From positions 1 to 24,974 of the IMG/VR virus record IMGVR_UViG_3300004461_001807: 24,974 nt of DNA. One strand, given 5' to 3'. Each line of letters starts with the position of its first letter. The stretch's first letter is position 1. Source of the stretch: a virus. Positions 537 through 17,512 of this stretch are shown here, piece by piece. The notes beneath the pieces were generated by a model. The model saw nothing but the letters and a program-made list of their open reading frames with translations. It searched no databases and was not told the DNA's origin. The position numbers were made by a program, and so were the translations under genes.

Positions 537-565
537 ATTATAATTGAATTAATTAAAAATGTCAA
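537..565 (-). promoter_or_regulatory. Sigma70-type promoter for the TonB receptor gene
   Basis: On the minus strand TTGACA (565-560), a 17-base spacer and TATAAT (542-537) match consensus exactly. It is preceded by ACTTC, as in the other leftward promoters of the window. Predicted start is about 530. Confidence 0.85.
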
Positions 566-829
566 GAAGTATTTTTGGCCTTGGTCGATTGTGGTTGCTG
601 TATGGCTTGTTATAGCACCTTTTTTGCTTATTAAATTCTTAAAGTTGTACGTGAAGGGGGGCCTGCGCGCTACCATTATCACTGAGTCTTATAACCGCCC
701 CCGCCTACTATCATTCACAATGATGTTGCAAAAAGTTGGCACGGTCTATGCTTAAGAGATGCTAGAACTTTTTGTTATAAGCAGGGCGATGGTTATGCTA
801 TTACGGTATAAAAAAAGATGCGGATATCC
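566..829. other. Intergenic stretch without a convincing gene
   Basis: Together with the leader at 429-536 this forms a 466-base gap. A rightward frame at 501-755 contains a hydrophobic stretch but lacks a ribosome-binding site and overlaps the leftward promoter. A GGGGGC/GCCCCC inverted repeat pairs 657-662 with 697-702. No terminator with a T-tract was seen. Confidence 0.4.
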
Positions 830-4001: not shown

Positions 4002-4038
4002 AAAAATCTGAGAAAAAGCTTGACTTTCTCAGATTTTT
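4002..4038. terminator. Strong bidirectional intrinsic terminator
   Basis: A perfect 14-bp stem pairs 4002-4015 with 4025-4038 around a 9-base loop. An A-run precedes it and a T-run follows, so it can stop the rightward operon and also leftward transcripts coming from 4277-4394. Confidence 0.85.
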
Positions 4039-4364
4039 GGCGCGGGGGCGCCAGTGCGAAAGTGACGTGCAAACCCTATGGGTCGCAGAAGCGATAGAAA
4101 ACGTGTGTGCGAGAATGAGTAGTCTCTCACAGGCTTGGGCTGATTTACATTGACTTTTTTGGCGCCGGCGCGCCAGTGCGAAAGTGAAGTAGAAAACCTA
4201 TGGGTCGTCAGCACGAAAAAATGTGTGTGTTTTCAACAGCTTAGTCTCATATAAGTTTTTTGGCGCCGGCGCGCCCATTATAGTGCGAAAGCGATGGCAT
4301 GTCAAGAGTTTTTTAGTGTTAACACGAAAATAAATAAAGTGGGTAGTCTCCCACAGCCGGCGCC
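4039..4364. repeat. GC-rich palindromic repeats at about 90-120 bp spacing
   Basis: The motif GGCGCCGGCGCGCC or a variant occurs at 4039-4052 (GGCGCGGGGGCGCC), 4161-4174, 4262-4275 and, shortened, 4356-4364. Each is followed by AGTGCGAAAG or a near copy (4053, 4175, 4281, 4370). The first two units also share CCTATGGGTCG (4076, 4197) and a GTGTGTG run; 'TAGTCTC(T/C)CACAG' marks other junctions. Copies 3 and 4 carry promoters between palindrome and repeat tail; copies 1 and 2 lack the TATAAT. No coding sequence is plausible here. Confidence 0.75.
4277..4305 (-). promoter_or_regulatory. Leftward promoter in repeat unit 3
   Basis: Minus strand TTGACA (4305-4300), 17-base spacer, TATAAT (4282-4277). 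The start site falls inside the GGCGCGCC palindrome. Nearly identical to the promoter at 4366-4394. Confidence 0.8.
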
Positions 4365-4365
4365 A

Positions 4366-4394
4366 ATTATAGTGCCAAAACGATGGCATGTCAA
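4366..4394 (-). promoter_or_regulatory. Leftward promoter in repeat unit 4
   Basis: Minus strand TTGACA (4394-4389), 17-base spacer, TATAAT (4371-4366). The spacer matches that of unit 3 in 14 of 17 positions. Transcripts would run into the repeat region and end at 4002-4038. Confidence 0.8.
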
Positions 4395-4451
4395 GACTTT
4401 TTTACCTCCTCCATGTGAAAAACTTTCTTTGGTCTTCCACCAAGAAAGTTG

Positions 4452-6454: not shown

Positions 6455-6612
6455 AGAATATGGAACACTTAAAAAAATTTAGTGCAGATCTAAAAGATAC
6501 ATTTAAAGCACGAAAAGTATATGAAGCAAGATGGGTTTGGTATCACACCATTCTAGCAGTAGAGCTTCTTATAATTATCTTCGTACTCTTAGGGATATTG
6601 GTGAAAATATGA
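6451..6612 (+). CDS. Small membrane protein, 53 aa
   Basis: GTG 6451 overlaps the previous stop with GGGGTGAG upstream; ATG 6460 is an alternative start. Basic N-terminus (KKFSADLKDTFKARK), then a hydrophobic helix near 36-52 (LLIIIFVLLGILV). Unknown role. Confidence 0.55.
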   Translation: MKNMEHLKKFSADLKDTFKARKVYEARWVWYHTILAVELLIIIFVLLGILVKI

Positions 6613-6686
6613 TAAAAGAACCAGACTTCTGGAAAGTAGTAGTTATACTAATTGGAATTGGGTATTTAATTGGAGGTTATATATGA
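6609..6686 (+). CDS. Micropeptide with membrane helix, 25 aa
   Basis: Coupled to both neighbours by 4-base overlaps. MIKEPDFWKVVVILIGIGYL contains one short membrane helix. Small size limits certainty. Confidence 0.42.
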   Translation: MIKEPDFWKVVVILIGIGYLIGGYI

Positions 6687-6919
6687 GCGAAGTAGAAGAA
6701 TTGCGAGCTGAAATTGCGCGATTAAAAGAACAGCAACAGGAAGACAAACTAACGATTGGCTTCGGTAATAAAGGCAATGTAAAAGTTGGTGGCAAAGCAT
6801 TAGGTCAACGGTTTCCTGTGACGTTATATGCCCCGTCGTGGCTTAAAGTATTAGACCAAGCTGATGAGATTCGTCAGTTCATTGAAGACAACAAAGATCA
6901 GCTTACTTGGGAGCGATAG
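6683..6919 (+). CDS. Coiled-coil small protein, 78 aa
   Basis: Residues 3-20 form a short coiled coil (EVEELRAEIARLKEQQQ). A small beta/helix domain follows (KLTIGFGNKGNVKVGGKA, then FPVTLYAPSWLKVLDQADEI). I recall similar short domains in phage and cyanobacterial proteins, without known function. GGAGG precedes ATG. Confidence 0.65.
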   Translation: MSEVEELRAEIARLKEQQQEDKLTIGFGNKGNVKVGGKALGQRFPVTLYAPSWLKVLDQADEIRQFIEDNKDQLTWER

Positions 6920-6920
6920 T

Positions 6921-7007
6921 ATGAGAAAACCAAATAATTGGAAAGAGTATGTAGACGTAATTGTAATCATGATGGTTATATTTCTAATGGTGGAGTATGT
7001 AGGGTGA
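6921..7007 (+). CDS. Micropeptide with membrane helix, 28 aa
   Basis: GGGAGCG precedes ATG 6921. MRKPNNWKEYVDVIVIMMVI: amphipathic start, then a Val/Ile/Met-rich helix. Stop overlaps the next GTG start. Confidence 0.42.
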   Translation: MRKPNNWKEYVDVIVIMMVIFLMVEYVG

Positions 7008-7198
7008 AAGTATTTTTAGATGTGTTACCGGATGGAAAGCATTATGGTTTTCCGAAAGAAGTACCTGAGTCATTAGTTACAAAGTTTGGCAATGAAGATT
7101 ATGCGCTAAAGCCAGGCTGGAGAAAGTGGGCAACGGAGCAAGGTTATCCTGGGGTTGATGGAAAGAATGTTCAATGGATGCACTTCTATGAGCGATGA
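7004..7198 (+). CDS. Hypothetical protein, 64 aa
   Basis: GTG 7004 overlaps the previous stop; GGAG lies 11 bases upstream. An upstream in-frame start at 6938 would add an implausible Cys/Arg-rich extension, so GTG is preferred. Content includes FLDVLPDGKHYGFPKEVPE and a Trp-rich end. No family recognised. Confidence 0.58.
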   Translation: MKVFLDVLPDGKHYGFPKEVPESLVTKFGNEDYALKPGWRKWATEQGYPGVDGKNVQWMHFYER

Positions 7199-7250
7199 GA
7201 AGGTGCGAAGGCTTTTAATATTATTACTACAAAAAGTGAGGCAACGATGA
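7188..7250 (+). CDS. Possible 20-residue micropeptide
   Basis: ATG 7188 lies inside the previous gene and its TGA overlaps the next ATG. Sequence MSDEKVRRLLILLLQKVRQR is amphipathic. It may only serve to couple translation across the gap. Confidence 0.3.
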   Translation: MSDEKVRRLLILLLQKVRQR

Positions 7251-7480
7251 GAGATAAAGTATTTGTTCTAATGGAAAGTGGTACTCCTAATGGCGGTGTA
7301 AAGGGTGTATATAGTCAGTTTGAGGTTGCTACGAAGATGGCAAACGCTATGAAAACATTAGAAGATTCTAATGCCTCCTATAAAATTCACCCAATTGACC
7401 TAGACTTTATTGACTTTGAGCTTATTGGTAGAGCAATTTTTAAAAAAATGCTTGACAATGGAAGTGATATTGTAGTATAA
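7247..7480 (+). CDS. Hypothetical protein, 77 aa
   Basis: GTGAGG precedes ATG. The start KVFVLMESGTPNGGVKGVYSQFEVA suggests a small alpha/beta protein like the short 'stimulus-response' DUFs seen in phages (tentative). A perfect promoter for the next gene is embedded in its last codons. Confidence 0.6.
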   Translation: MRDKVFVLMESGTPNGGVKGVYSQFEVATKMANAMKTLEDSNASYKIHPIDLDFIDFELIGRAIFKKMLDNGSDIVV

Positions 7481-7481
7481 T
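7452..7481 (+). promoter_or_regulatory. Internal promoter before 7480/7489
   Basis: TTGACA (7452-7457), 18-base spacer, TATAAT (7476-7481). The -10 overlaps ATG 7480, so this transcript would start near ATG 7489 and be almost leaderless. Confidence 0.6.
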
Positions 7482-7704
7482 GAGTAACATGACTGTCATT
7501 CAATTCCCAGAAAGCCCTCGCCTCAAGCGGGGCCGTTACTTGCTAGATTTAGCCGAAAGTAAGATGGCTACTATAGATAAGTTGCACGAAGAAATGGAAG
7601 TAGTCATGTTGGAGTTTACAGCTCTACAGGTGTCCCTGGCTCCCGTAGAGATGAGTAAACTATTGGATCAACCTTACCAGATGGAGATTGATTTTGTATA
7701 CTAA
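7480..7704 (+). CDS. Hypothetical helical protein, 74 aa
   Basis: ATG 7480 overlaps the previous stop; ATG 7489 (MTVIQFPESPRLKRG) is the alternative for a leaderless transcript from the internal promoter. Residues 17-50 are helical (LLDLAESKMATIDKLHEEME). It overlaps the next gene by 17 bases. No family recognised. Confidence 0.58.
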   Translation: MSNMTVIQFPESPRLKRGRYLLDLAESKMATIDKLHEEMEVVMLEFTALQVSLAPVEMSKLLDQPYQMEIDFVY

Positions 7705-9113: not shown

Positions 9114-9265
9114 ATCTCTACTCCCCAACTCCAGATAATCCACGAAAAGATAAAACCGTAGTCATCCGTCATCATGTCCTGGCTATGGTAGAGTGCGAAA
9201 CTGGGAAGAACATGAAAGAGTCCTTCAGCTCGCCAAGTGTTTTGTATAGATTGTTGAATTTGCAT
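9098..9265 (-). CDS. Hypothetical protein, 55 aa
   Basis: AAGGGG precedes ATG 9265, directly downstream of a perfect promoter. Its end, FIFSWIIWSWGVEIW, is hydrophobic and Trp-rich, suggesting membrane association. No family recognised. Confidence 0.6.
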   Translation of the reverse strand: MQIQQSIQNTWRAEGLFHVLPSFALYHSQDMMTDDYGFIFSWIIWSWGVEIWMDA

Positions 9266-9288: not shown

Positions 9289-9317
9289 ATTATACGCCCT
9301 TGACATCTCCGTGTCAA
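9289..9317 (-). promoter_or_regulatory. Sigma70-type promoter with palindrome over the -35
   Basis: Minus strand TTGACA (9317-9312), 17-base spacer, TATAAT (9294-9289), preceded by AATAATTC. CTTGACA (9299-9305) and TGTCAAG (9312-9318) form an inverted repeat over the -35, a possible operator. Confidence 0.85.
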
Positions 9318-9628
9318 GAATTATTTTTACCTGAGTAGGCATTCGCTCCGAAGAACGCCGCAACTAACGCACTAATGGCGATAAAGTATGTGGGCGCAAT
9401 ATCTCCAATAATATTCGCAGCTGTGTCAAGCCCGAATAGGCTAGTACAAAAGATACCGAAAGGATAGAGTAGCATTCCGAAGAGTGCGAACCATGTCATT
9501 TTTCGCATAGCATCACGCTGTGCATCTTCATCTTCTAGTTTCTTTCTCTTAAATTCGAGGTGCATCATAAGCTCTTCTTCGCTTACATGACCGTCACCAT
9601 TTACATCCGCTGGATGATGTTCACTCAT
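9314..9628 (-). CDS. EF-hand membrane protein, 104 aa
   Basis: Residues 8-19 (DVNGDGHVSEEE) are a canonical 12-residue EF-hand loop with Asp8, Asn10, Asp12, Gly13 and Glu19, predicting Ca2+ binding. A charged helix follows, then two membrane helices at about 45-65 and 78-97. Layout suggests a cytoplasmic or periplasmic Ca2+ sensor tied to the inner membrane. Its stop lies in the -35 of the next promoter. A truncated copy sits immediately upstream. Confidence 0.75.
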   Translation of the reverse strand: MSEHHPADVNGDGHVSEEELMMHLEFKRKKLEDEDAQRDAMRKMTWFALFGMLLYPFGIFCTSLFGLDTAANIIGDIAPTYFIAISALVAAFFGANAYSGKNNS

Positions 9629-9854
9629 TTATTTTTCCTCTTCTTGCCTTCCATTTCATTCACGTGATGATAATTTAAATTCGTAGTCTGATATATAGTT
9701 TCTAAGCCATTGAGTGCAGGTGTCTTTATCAAACACATCTTCATCTTCTATTTTCTTTCTCTTAAATTCGAGGTGCATCATAAGCTCTTCTTCGCTTACA
9801 TGATCGTCACCATTTACATCCTCTGGATGATGTTCACTCATTTATTTTTCTCCT
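9525..9854 (-). repeat. Tandem duplication (two copies of about 117 bp)
   Basis: 9525-9641 and 9738-9854 are near-identical direct repeats offset by 213 bp, each spanning ribosome site, start and about 34 codons of the EF-hand genes. Confidence 0.8.
9656..9841 (-). CDS. Duplicated EF-hand protein without membrane part, 61 aa
   Basis: Residues 1-37 are nearly identical to the 9314-9628 protein (ribosome site included), with Gly13 of the EF loop changed to Asp and a Leu to Ile change. After residue 38 the sequence is unrelated (FDKDTCTQWLRNYISDYEF) and the membrane helices are gone. It looks like a recent tandem duplication with loss or replacement of the tail. It may be a soluble decoy or a decaying copy. 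Confidence 0.68.
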   Translation of the reverse strand: MSEHHPEDVNGDDHVSEEELMMHLEFKRKKIEDEDVFDKDTCTQWLRNYISDYEFKLSSRE

Positions 9855-9855
9855 T

Positions 9856-10737
9856 TTATAGATTGTAGAAGTTTCCTAGTCCTACGTTTGATGGATGCTC
9901 TGCCTCTTGCCAGTTTGCAGCCAAAGTTCCTTTTTGACCAGCCGAAGAAGAGAAAGCAAAAGCGTTAGTAACATTATTTACATTCAAAGAACTAATATCT
10001 TGATTGAATGCAAGAGCGTTGTTGAACATATAACTCATATTTGTAACATTAGCAGTACCCGTTCCAGCAGTCCAAGTTAATGCTACACCACCATTATTGA
10101 ATCTAAAAACATTGGCGAACATAAAACTCATATTAGTAACACTACTTACATTCCAAGAACTAATGTCTTGAATGAATCCGTCAGCGTTGTTGAACATATT
10201 ACTCATATTAGTAACACTACTTACATTCCAAGAACTAATGTCTTGACTGAATGTAAAAGCATTTAGGAACATACCACTCATATTAGTAACACTACTTACA
10301 TTCCAAGAACTAATGTCTTGATTGAATGCATAAGCACTTTGGAACATAAAACTCATATTAGTAACAGTACTAGTGTCCCAAGATGAAATGCCCGGATCAT
10401 TGAACGTAGTCTCACTTCGGAACATTCTTCTCATACTAGTAATAGGAGCATCAGCACCTATACCTTCGCCTGGATAATAAGTGTATCCGGCAGGTTTCGT
10501 TGTCCAGCTAACACTGGTAGGGTCTGTTAGCGATGTGAGTGCATAAGTGTATGCTTGCCCACCGAAAGAAACAACTTCACGCCTTCTACTACCTCCACCA
10601 GCTCTTGCGGTTTTCTTCTTTTTCTTCTTCTTCTTTGCAATTTTAGCCACAACAGCTACGGCAGAGAATCTAGCATTAATTTTCGCTAGCTGCTTTTTTG
10701 TTAATTTTATCTTACTTTTACTAAATCTCTTAGCCAT
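9856..10737 (-). CDS. BspA-like (DUF285) repeat protein, 293 aa
   Basis: The N-terminus (1-55) is extremely Lys/Arg-rich, with a run of eight or more lysines. After a spacer, at least six repeats of about 25 residues follow from residue 100 to 265 with the pattern ISSWNVSSVTNMSxMFxxAxxFNQD, the DUF285/BspA-type leucine-rich-like surface repeat. Such repeats mediate adhesion or ligand binding in bacterial surface proteins. There is no signal peptide or membrane anchor. In a phage it may be a virion decoration or receptor-binding protein; the basic head could contact DNA or the virion (inference). Confidence 0.78.
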   Translation of the reverse strand: MAKRFSKSKIKLTKKQLAKINARFSAVAVVAKIAKKKKKKKKTARAGGGSRRREVVSFGGQAYTYALTSLTDPTSVSWTTKPAGYTYYPGEGIGADAPITSMRRMFRSETTFNDPGISSWDTSTVTNMSFMFQSAYAFNQDISSWNVSSVTNMSGMFLNAFTFSQDISSWNVSSVTNMSNMFNNADGFIQDISSWNVSSVTNMSFMFANVFRFNNGGVALTWTAGTGTANVTNMSYMFNNALAFNQDISSLNVNNVTNAFAFSSSAGQKGTLAANWQEAEHPSNVGLGNFYNL

Positions 10738-14894: not shown

Positions 14895-15030
14895 TTTTCT
14901 TTCTCTTCTTCTTAAACCCTGCTTTCATCAGGGAATAAGCTTTGGGTGAGATAGTAGACTTTTTCTTCGTTCTACTAGTACCCTTCTTTTTTCGGCGGTT
15001 TATATTTGCATACAATCCACGAGCAGCCAT
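14866..15030 (-). CDS. Small basic phage protein, 54 aa
   Basis: MAARGLYANINRRKKKGTSR then ISPKAYSLMKAGFKKKRKK: a pattern I recall as a short conserved phage protein (GLYANI.KRK..GTSR...SPKAY). About 40% Lys/Arg. Starts on the stop of the gene before it (TAATG). Confidence 0.68.
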   Translation of the reverse strand: MAARGLYANINRRKKKGTSRTKKKSTISPKAYSLMKAGFKKKRKKSGSKKTKKR

Positions 15031-15158
15031 TATTTACGTTTCTTCTTTGATTTCTTTTTCTTCTTAATATTCTTTAAGAAAGCCATTGGCAGCTTTTGCT
15101 TACCTTTTTTGCTTGGACGCCCTCTTTTTTTACCGTAAGTACCTTTTCCTGCTGGCAT
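15030..15158 (-). CDS. Small basic phage protein, 42 aa
   Basis: AGGAG precedes ATG 15158. MPAGKGTYGKKRGRPSKKG has an AT-hook-like KRGRP core, followed by Lys runs. Similar short proteins flank basic virion/DNA proteins in other phages (recalled). Overlaps the end of the BFD-like gene by 85 bases. Confidence 0.65.
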   Translation of the reverse strand: MPAGKGTYGKKRGRPSKKGKQKLPMAFLKNIKKKKKSKKKRK

Positions 15159-15295
15159 GTATAAACTCCTGTTATAAAGCTCTGCGCGTTATTTGGCGCA
15201 ATACATTTACCACATTTCGATCCTACCTTATCTATAAGCCTAGGATCTTTCTCTAAGTCTTTACTGGATATATTATTGCAAATACATACATACAT
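15074..15295 (-). CDS. BFD-like [2Fe-2S] ferredoxin, 73 aa
   Basis: Residues 1-6 MYVCIC and 28-31 CGKC give the four-cysteine set of bacterioferritin-associated ferredoxin (BFD) domains, which bind [2Fe-2S]. The gap between pairs is 21 residues, about ten shorter than in typical BFD, so the helical part between is reduced. BFD in cells releases iron from bacterioferritin; that role here is inferred. GAGG precedes ATG 15295. Downstream of a 0.5-kb structured leader and about 1 kb downstream of iscU. The last 28 residues overlap another gene and may be less constrained. Confidence 0.62.
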   Translation of the reverse strand: MYVCICNNISSKDLEKDPRLIDKVGSKCGKCIAPNNAQSFITGVYTCQQEKVLTVKKEGVQAKKVSKSCQWLS

Positions 15296-15299
15296 AAAG

Positions 15300-15815
15300 A
15301 CCTCTATAATAGGTGGGGGCGCGTTACGCTTTAAGGCTGACTGCTCACCCCCAGGTGTTCGATGAGGTGCAGTGCTTCTTCGGGGAAGTCTTATCTACTC
15401 CATGACAGTTTGCCTCATCTCAGAAATAGTGGCCTTTTATTTACGGGAAAAAGCCATAAAACCTGCAACCGGACTAGATCCTTTTGATTAACGTGGCTTG
15501 CTTACACGGAGATGGTCTACGAGTTCTCTTCTCGGTAGGTCTTTTTGTTTTAACGTCGTCTCCCGCCTGTAAGGTTCGACGTGCCCATAGGAATCGGTAC
15601 CAGTTTATGGGGCAACGGGGTCATTAGCTCCCCAAGGGCAGTTTATATCCGCATCGGACTGCCTTCCGAAGAGTTACTTATCGTAGCAACTACACCGTCT
15701 AACTAGGAGGAAGTTAGAATCCTCCACTCATTTACGCCTGAGGGGTGTGGGCGATACCCCAAATAACTAGGGGATATCTCTAGTGGATTTTAAATAAGAA
15801 TCTCTCTTATTTATG
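15300..15815 (-). ncRNA. Long structured RNA or leader, about 515 nt
   Basis: No gene fits here, yet a perfect promoter (15822-15850) reads into it. At least ten stems can be paired: 15792-15799/15805-15812; GGGGT/ACCCC at 15742-15759; GGAGGA/TCCTCC near 15707-15724; AGTT/AACT near 15672-15691; AAGGGCAGT/ACTGCCTT at 15634-15665; CCCATA/TATGGG at 15583-15610; ACGTCG/CGACGT at 15552-15581; CTAC-GAG/CTC-GTAG at 15517-15538; GGC-TTTT/AAAA-GCC near 15431-15456; GATGAGG/CCTCATC at 15361-15419; TGGGGG/CCCCCA at 15313-15352. It ends directly at the BFD-like ribosome site without a terminator, so it may be a leader or a processed RNA. No known class (tmRNA, RNase P, riboswitch) was recognised. Confidence 0.65.
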
Positions 15816-15821
15816 AATACA

Positions 15822-15850
15822 ATTATATCGGTAAATAGGTTGCGTGTCAA
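15822..15850 (-). promoter_or_regulatory. Sigma70-type promoter of the long structured RNA
   Basis: Minus strand TTGACA (15850-15845), 17-base spacer, TATAAT (15827-15822), preceded by AAATAATTC. Perfect consensus. Confidence 0.9.
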
Positions 15851-15863
15851 GAATTATTTTTTA

Positions 15864-17244: not shown

Positions 17245-17273
17245 ATTATACTAGCAAAGAGGATTCTTGTCAA
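17245..17273 (-). promoter_or_regulatory. Sigma70-type promoter of the iscU-containing operon
   Basis: Minus strand TTGACA (17273-17268), 17-base spacer, TATAAT (17250-17245), preceded by AAATAATTC. The stop of the upstream gene lies in TTGACA. Confidence 0.88.
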
Positions 17274-17512
17274 GAATTATTTTCCCGATGTAGTGCTCTT
17301 AGTACTTCTGCCCACTGTTCCTCCGTAACACCAGCATGATGGCCTGGAGCAGCTACTTTTTCCCACCTTGGGAGTTCGCCCGACGGAGCTGTATTCACGT
17401 ACCCGTCAGACGTTATCTTGAGTTCCTCTCCTTCACGCCCACGTTCTTCGTTACCTTCTGCATTCAGTTCGGTTAACGCCTGCTGAAGCAATCTATAGTT
17501 CGGATTCGACAT
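17270..17512 (-). CDS. Hypothetical protein, 80 aa
   Basis: ATG 17512 (TTG 17518 possible), inside the end of the upstream gene. Polar, with GNEERGREGEELKITSDGY and a C-terminal GVTEEQWAEVLRALHRE helix. No family recognised. Confidence 0.58.
   Translation of the reverse strand: MSNPNYRLLQQALTELNAEGNEERGREGEELKITSDGYVNTAPSGELPRWEKVAAPGHHAGVTEEQWAEVLRALHRENNS

Follow-up and report, generated by a model that had tools for sequence, protein, structure and literature searches.

The minus strand of a 24,974-nt stretch of phage DNA (the window, by which we mean the whole stretch analysed) specifies a structured RNA whose last part recurs at one locus in five lineages of uncultured phages. Its structure and homology are shown, whereas its function is inferred; we give a probability of roughly one half to the reading that it represents a new class of phage 5′-leader RNA that controls its own operon in cis.

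Locus, promoter and coding potential

The source contig is a phage fragment that carries iscU, thyX, an endolysin-like gene and a spanin-like gene. The RNA locus contains the following features:

15296..15821, minus strand: whole structured RNA in its lineage A form, ~515-520 nt, running from 15815 to ~15296
15822..15850, minus strand: sigma70-type promoter TTGACA-17-TATAAT (TTGACA 15850-15845, 17-nt spacer, TATAAT 15827-15822)
15300..15314, minus strand: conserved CCUA adjoining stem H14; ACCU (15314-15311) can pair with AGGU (15303-15300)
15074..15295, minus strand: BFD-like CxC..CGxC ORF with its ATG at 15295, 3′ of the RNA
15030..15158, minus strand: short Lys-rich ORF overlapping the end of the BFD-like ORF

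A sequence-only reading of this DNA had described a structured RNA behind a perfect promoter that ends at a ribosome site upstream of a BFD-like gene, and our results agree with it on each point. The promoter matches the consensus at 12 of 12 positions and lies directly 5′ of the RNA, at the same position, in each lineage; transcription would start near 15815. The ribosome site is AGAGG at 15305-15301, which the ACCU/AGGU pairing would cover, and the ORF after it matches Pfam Fer2_BFD with an E value of 0.0013, which is under the gathering score. No terminator-like hairpin was found at the RNA end. The promoter belongs to a family repeated in the contig, with further copies at 4271, 4360 and 17239, and the promoter element AAAAATAATTCTTGACA is repeated at window 558-576, 9310-9328, 15843-15861 and 17266-17284, upstream of several operons.

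A coding frame at the locus was rejected because 15300-15812 holds no ORF of at least 50 aa and every frame has stops (7-14 per frame, the longest stop-free run being 50 codons). Also, 1-nt indels separate the RNA copies of relatives. The G+C content of the RNA is 47% as against 41% for the contig. The minus-strand fold is 3.25 sd better than dinucleotide shuffles (0 of 20 shuffles), as against 1.66 sd for the plus strand; an RNA on the plus strand was rejected in view of this weaker fold, the absence of a promoter and the opposite orientation of the genes. The RNA has diverged less than the third codon positions of most neighbour genes: 10.4% of its sites differ from L018 and 6.8% from L016, against 14-46% and 5-30%, respectively, at third codon positions of the flanking genes.

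Three further stretches of the window may be mentioned. Positions 4033-4404 appear to be another regulatory or RNA-rich region, in which a G+C-rich direct repeat (TTTTTTGGCGCCGGCGCGCC) occurs three times and a promoter-like 45-mer twice. A minus-strand gene at 9856-10737 has in-frame 75-nt repeats (NMSxMF.. units; PHROG 17273/3649), and two 120-nt direct copies (9523-9642 and 9736-9855) are 96% identical and 213 nt apart.

Relatives and downstream genes

Searches of IMG/VR started from the neighbouring iscU protein, from other neighbours or from DNA patterns. The relatives fall into five lineages at one locus, all from uncultured, mostly aquatic phages:

Lineage A: the window and about 15 contigs (87-100% identical), along with L168 from a MAG; ~520 nt
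Lineage B: L095, L098 and L106 (781 nt) and L148 (665 nt)
Lineage C: L062, L064, L068, L030 and L128; 795-967 nt
Lineage D: L112, L114, L117, L122 and L124; ~160 nt
Lineage E: L179; ~236 nt

In A-D, wherever the upstream gene was read, it proved to be one small acidic gene or a relative of that gene. Lineage C has a ~50-aa hydrophobic ORF inside the RNA, and L148 carries a decayed copy of the small ORF inserted in B. Among phage isolates we found no direct nucleotide relative, and nine whole records of related isolates (Roseobacter and Pelagibacter phages, C48C1 and Manatee Spring genomes) gave no convincing module; a weak match in HTVC033P (E 0.1) and a second weak module match in a lineage D record (E 0.05) were taken as chance. 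In bacterial genomes one of six pattern matches was real. This is L168 (DNHN01000359.1), a lineage A locus on a 6.3-kb contig binned to a 'Bacteroidetes' MAG, and it is probably mis-binned phage DNA. The pattern matches L109-L111, L113, L115, L116, L118, L119, L121, L125 and L126, most of L170-L195 and all of L196-L213 were discarded as chance or coding. On the 8.5-kb contig L098 the B-type locus is complete, and roughly 6 kb from it lies a portion of a C-type locus, which has a BFD of its own and another permuted tmRNA (tag ANDDIYSLAA).

The genes that follow the RNA vary by lineage, and the RNA is therefore the constant element. A BFD-like ORF follows it in A, B and C only; in B (L095 type) and C a permuted tmRNA comes after the BFD. 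In L148 and lineage D a DUF5824-type Lys/Arg-rich gene follows, with neither BFD nor tmRNA. In lineage E the permuted tmRNA stands directly after the RNA, which ends at 9158 of L179, the Rfam tmRNA match beginning at 9165. The iron link proposed earlier thus fails as a general explanation, and a BFD-linked iron leader was rejected, since L148, D and E carry the RNA with no BFD after it. Permuted tmRNA genes of the related phages lie at L068:9778-10121, L095:4629-4927 and L179:9165-9524, with tags ANDEVYDLAIAA and ANDSAYGEESLAA. Also in L179, an array at 6479-7691 comprises some five Ala-rich ORFs, paralogous to one another, that end in YWxKRYEELTN.

This arrangement bears on the reading that the RNA is a tmRNA-linked element, i.e., a part of the pre-tmRNA that guides its processing or aids ribosome rescue, phages devoid of tmRNA retaining a relic with a second use. 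Such a role would fit the spacing in E, where some 8 nt separate the RNA from the permuted tmRNA match, and the order BFD then tmRNA in B and C. Yet the module is strongly kept in A, L148 and D, whose whole contigs (up to 59.8 kb in A) lack tmRNA, and we regard this reading as quite improbable.

The universal 3′ module

Only the last ~107 nt of the RNA are common to all lineages. The minus-strand elements of this module are:

15314..15420: universal 3′ module, 107 nt (covariance model R1)
15419-15413/15367-15361: stem H11
15398-15395/15372-15369: stem H12
15393-15389: internal loop UAAGA
15388-15385/15378-15375: stem H13
15352-15348/15319-15315: stem H14, GGGGG/CCCCC
15336-15328: conserved CCTTAAAGC

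A long stem with the UAAGA internal loop is followed by the GGGGG/CCCCC stem, which closes the conserved CCUUAAAGC strand. A tertiary pair UAAG/CUUA within the module is possible, but its letters are invariant. After the last stem every lineage has the conserved CCUA, which can pair with the AGG of the ribosome site. The module sits some 20-60 nt 5′ of the first gene or directly 5′ of the permuted tmRNA.

Model R1, trained on lineages A and B only, matched the other lineages at full length and in place (E 3e-5 in C, 1e-4 in D and 0.08 in E, or 0.0018 for the record), with one confident copy in each whole record. The membership of lineage E is weak by score alone, and its support comes from the exact place, the promoter and shared elements resembling H6 and PK7 of the 5′ part. 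In the module alignment 97.6% of cells are paired and 12 of 20 pairs are compensated; covariation scores 0.527, as against 0.171 when shuffled and at most 0.076 with slid partners. This alignment was fitted to the structure and includes one row that is a chance match (L133), and is biased towards structure for that reason. The module stems can be read by eye in unfitted sequences.

The 5′ pseudoknot array

The part 5′ of the module consists mostly of tandem H-type pseudoknots, about six to seven in the window RNA, whose stems nest poorly. Its elements, all on the minus strand, are:

15792..15812: 5′ hairpin, stem compensated among members
15755..15784: PK1, ACTAG/CTAGT with TATCCC/GGGGTA; H-type, both stems compensated in A/B and the second stem in C too
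15727..15753: PK2, CGCC/GGCG with CTCA/TGAG; invariant in A, with a different-letter pseudoknot in a like place in B
15698..15725: PK3, GGAGGA/TCCTCC with TCTAAC/GTTAGA; highest score of any pseudoknot in the window RNA, no variation within A
15637..15669: PK4, TCGG/CCGA with GGCAG(T)/(A)CTGCC; retained in both A and B
15583..15633: hairpins H5 and H6, the H6 stem GCCC/GGGC changing to GCAC/GTGC
15536..15582: PK7, ACGTCG/CGACGT with CAGG/CCT(G/A); compensated among C members, a like element in E, register uncertain in A
15509..15534: PK8, CGAG/CTCG with GAGA/TCTC; first stem CGTG/CACG in L148
15431..15455: hairpin H10, in a position like that of the ORF-bearing insert in B and C

The conserved H6 loop TAAAYTGGTAYC(N)ATTCCTATG is present in A, B, C and E, and a kissing pair GCTA/TGGT between H5 and H6 is possible. 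The 5′ hairpin and at least ten further stems listed in the sequence-only reading are present (hairpin 15812-15792 and more than 20 helices), but a list of simple stems misses both the tandem pseudoknots and the sole universal stretch.

The summed pseudoknot score of the window RNA is 77.0 as against 37.3 +/- 12.5 in shuffles (0 of 300), and exceeds that of all 178 other segments of the contig (top 71.6). The opposite strand also scores above its own shuffles (z 2.4), and the excess is not significant in every member (z about 0.7 in L062). In unfitted alignments, 6 pairs are changed on both sides in lineage A as against 1.6 in shuffles, and 14 in lineage C as against 9.3 (score 0.176 as against 0.089). 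Stems of A and B were paired by hand because the MAFFT alignment of their 5′ parts failed; the 33 doubly changed pairs counted across lineages in this way are hand-chosen, lean towards pairing and are to be taken as an upper view. PK3, PK4 and the second stem of PK8 are invariant within A, and score and conservation speak for them. The array is expandable, with a lineage-specific length, ORF-bearing inserts in B and C and complete absence in D, and in A-C it is itself under selection.

Compensatory changes beyond control, found in lineages A and C and in the module, establish a structured RNA under selection. The alternative of a decayed gene or chance structure, for which nothing speaks beyond the absence of a named family, is refuted by this covariation and also has to face the slow divergence, the conserved promoter and the five lineages; we consider it extremely improbable. 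The non-coding RNA described earlier at this locus is therefore real on the combined evidence of covariation, folding against shuffles, low divergence and occurrence in five lineages.

Comparison with known RNA classes

A search of the whole contig against Rfam (E<=1) gave no match to the RNA and two unrelated sub-threshold matches elsewhere; 15290-15825 gave none at E<=10, and the other lineages gave only tmRNA, tRNA and sub-threshold chance matches. The Rfam scan, suggested earlier as a check, thus led to no family. The RNA belongs to none of the classes named earlier for comparison, as the covariance models of GOLLD, ROOL and IMES do not match it, and those of OLE and HEARO do not match either. 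No aptamer model of the known Rfam riboswitch classes matched; the riboswitch-like traits are the position and a possible Shine-Dalgarno-covering helix, and nothing further. As regards tmRNA, ARAGORN found none in the window and no Rfam tmRNA match falls on the RNA. A literature search of incomplete coverage returned no description of the RNA.

Nearest in kind are ROOL and GOLLD, large multi-helix phage RNAs with pseudoknots found near tRNA-type genes or tRNA islands (PMC12286853); in B, C and E the RNA described here likewise lies near a tmRNA gene. It differs from them in being built of a short universal 3′ module and an expandable tandem pseudoknot array, in shrinking to ~160 nt in D and ~236 nt in E, and in having no Rfam match. 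Nearest in setting is the glutamine riboswitch associated with a two-piece tmRNA gene in the marine phage Melnitz (PMC9004378), again a structured RNA with a permuted tmRNA gene, but the RNA described here has other conserved letters and also lies 5′ of BFD and DUF5824 genes. With permuted tmRNA (RF04321) it shares the chain of H-type pseudoknots, and in B, C and E it has a genuine permuted tmRNA as a neighbour; the tRNA-like domain and tag frame were not found in the RNA itself. OLE RNA is also large and intricately structured, and, as with OLE, some of the present lineages have a small hydrophobic ORF alongside; here, however, the ORF is inside the RNA, has decayed in L148 and is missing from A, D and E. 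OLE, too, gave no Rfam match. To our knowledge, it is unusual for a single bacterial or phage RNA to contain at least six H-type pseudoknots in a string.

Possible function

The earlier alternatives of a large phage RNA or a long leader are both retained. A cis-acting leader is supported by the same locus everywhere, with the promoter before the RNA and a gene start or tmRNA after it, by the single confident module copy per record, and by the complementarity of the CCUA to the AGG of the ribosome site, although this pairing is short and near-trivial as evidence because any CCU fits a Shine-Dalgarno sequence. Also, the ~160 nt before DUF5824 in lineage D are about as long as an ordinary cis leader and are placed like one, and the Melnitz riboswitch (PMC9004378) is a precedent. 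The varying first gene (BFD, DUF5824 or tmRNA) is odd for a dedicated switch, and an array far more elaborate than leaders need, itself selected in A-C, weakens the reading further.

Because of this elaborate array and of downstream genes that come and go, the main rival is an ornate trans-acting RNA of the same kind as GOLLD, ROOL or OLE, which would be released by cleavage from the 5′ end of the operon transcript and act alone by binding proteins or ribosomes or by self-assembly. Such an RNA would account for the 500-970 nt and many pseudoknots in A-C, for persistence after loss of BFD, tmRNA or both (L148), for the slow divergence, and for the tmRNA gene adjoining it in B, C and E, as GOLLD and ROOL occur near tRNA islands (PMC12286853). 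The short forms in D and E, the constant position directly 5′ of a same-strand gene and the missing terminator-like hairpin do not fit it well, and we hold it to be possible but tentative. Rather unlikely is a modular trans-acting RNA machine processed from the leader and acting with, or replacing, the phage tmRNA on ribosomes; its 5′ part would grow and shrink by whole pseudoknots and ORF inserts around the fixed 107-nt module.

As a cis leader, the module would set how much of the operon is made. Where a protein gene lies downstream, it may switch, or hold, the conserved CCUA against the Shine-Dalgarno sequence, a pairing that would mask the first gene's start; where tmRNA lies downstream, it may guide processing of the precursor. 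The pseudoknot array may protect the 5′ end of the transcript or keep the module accessible to a ligand, a protein or ribosomes. The finding contributes an RNA class of uncultured phages that matches nothing in Rfam, and links a leader RNA to phage-borne permuted tmRNA. It also provides a natural deletion series (about 160, 236, 520, 650, 780, 800 and 960 nt) around one fixed module, and therefore the module and the array can be tested apart.
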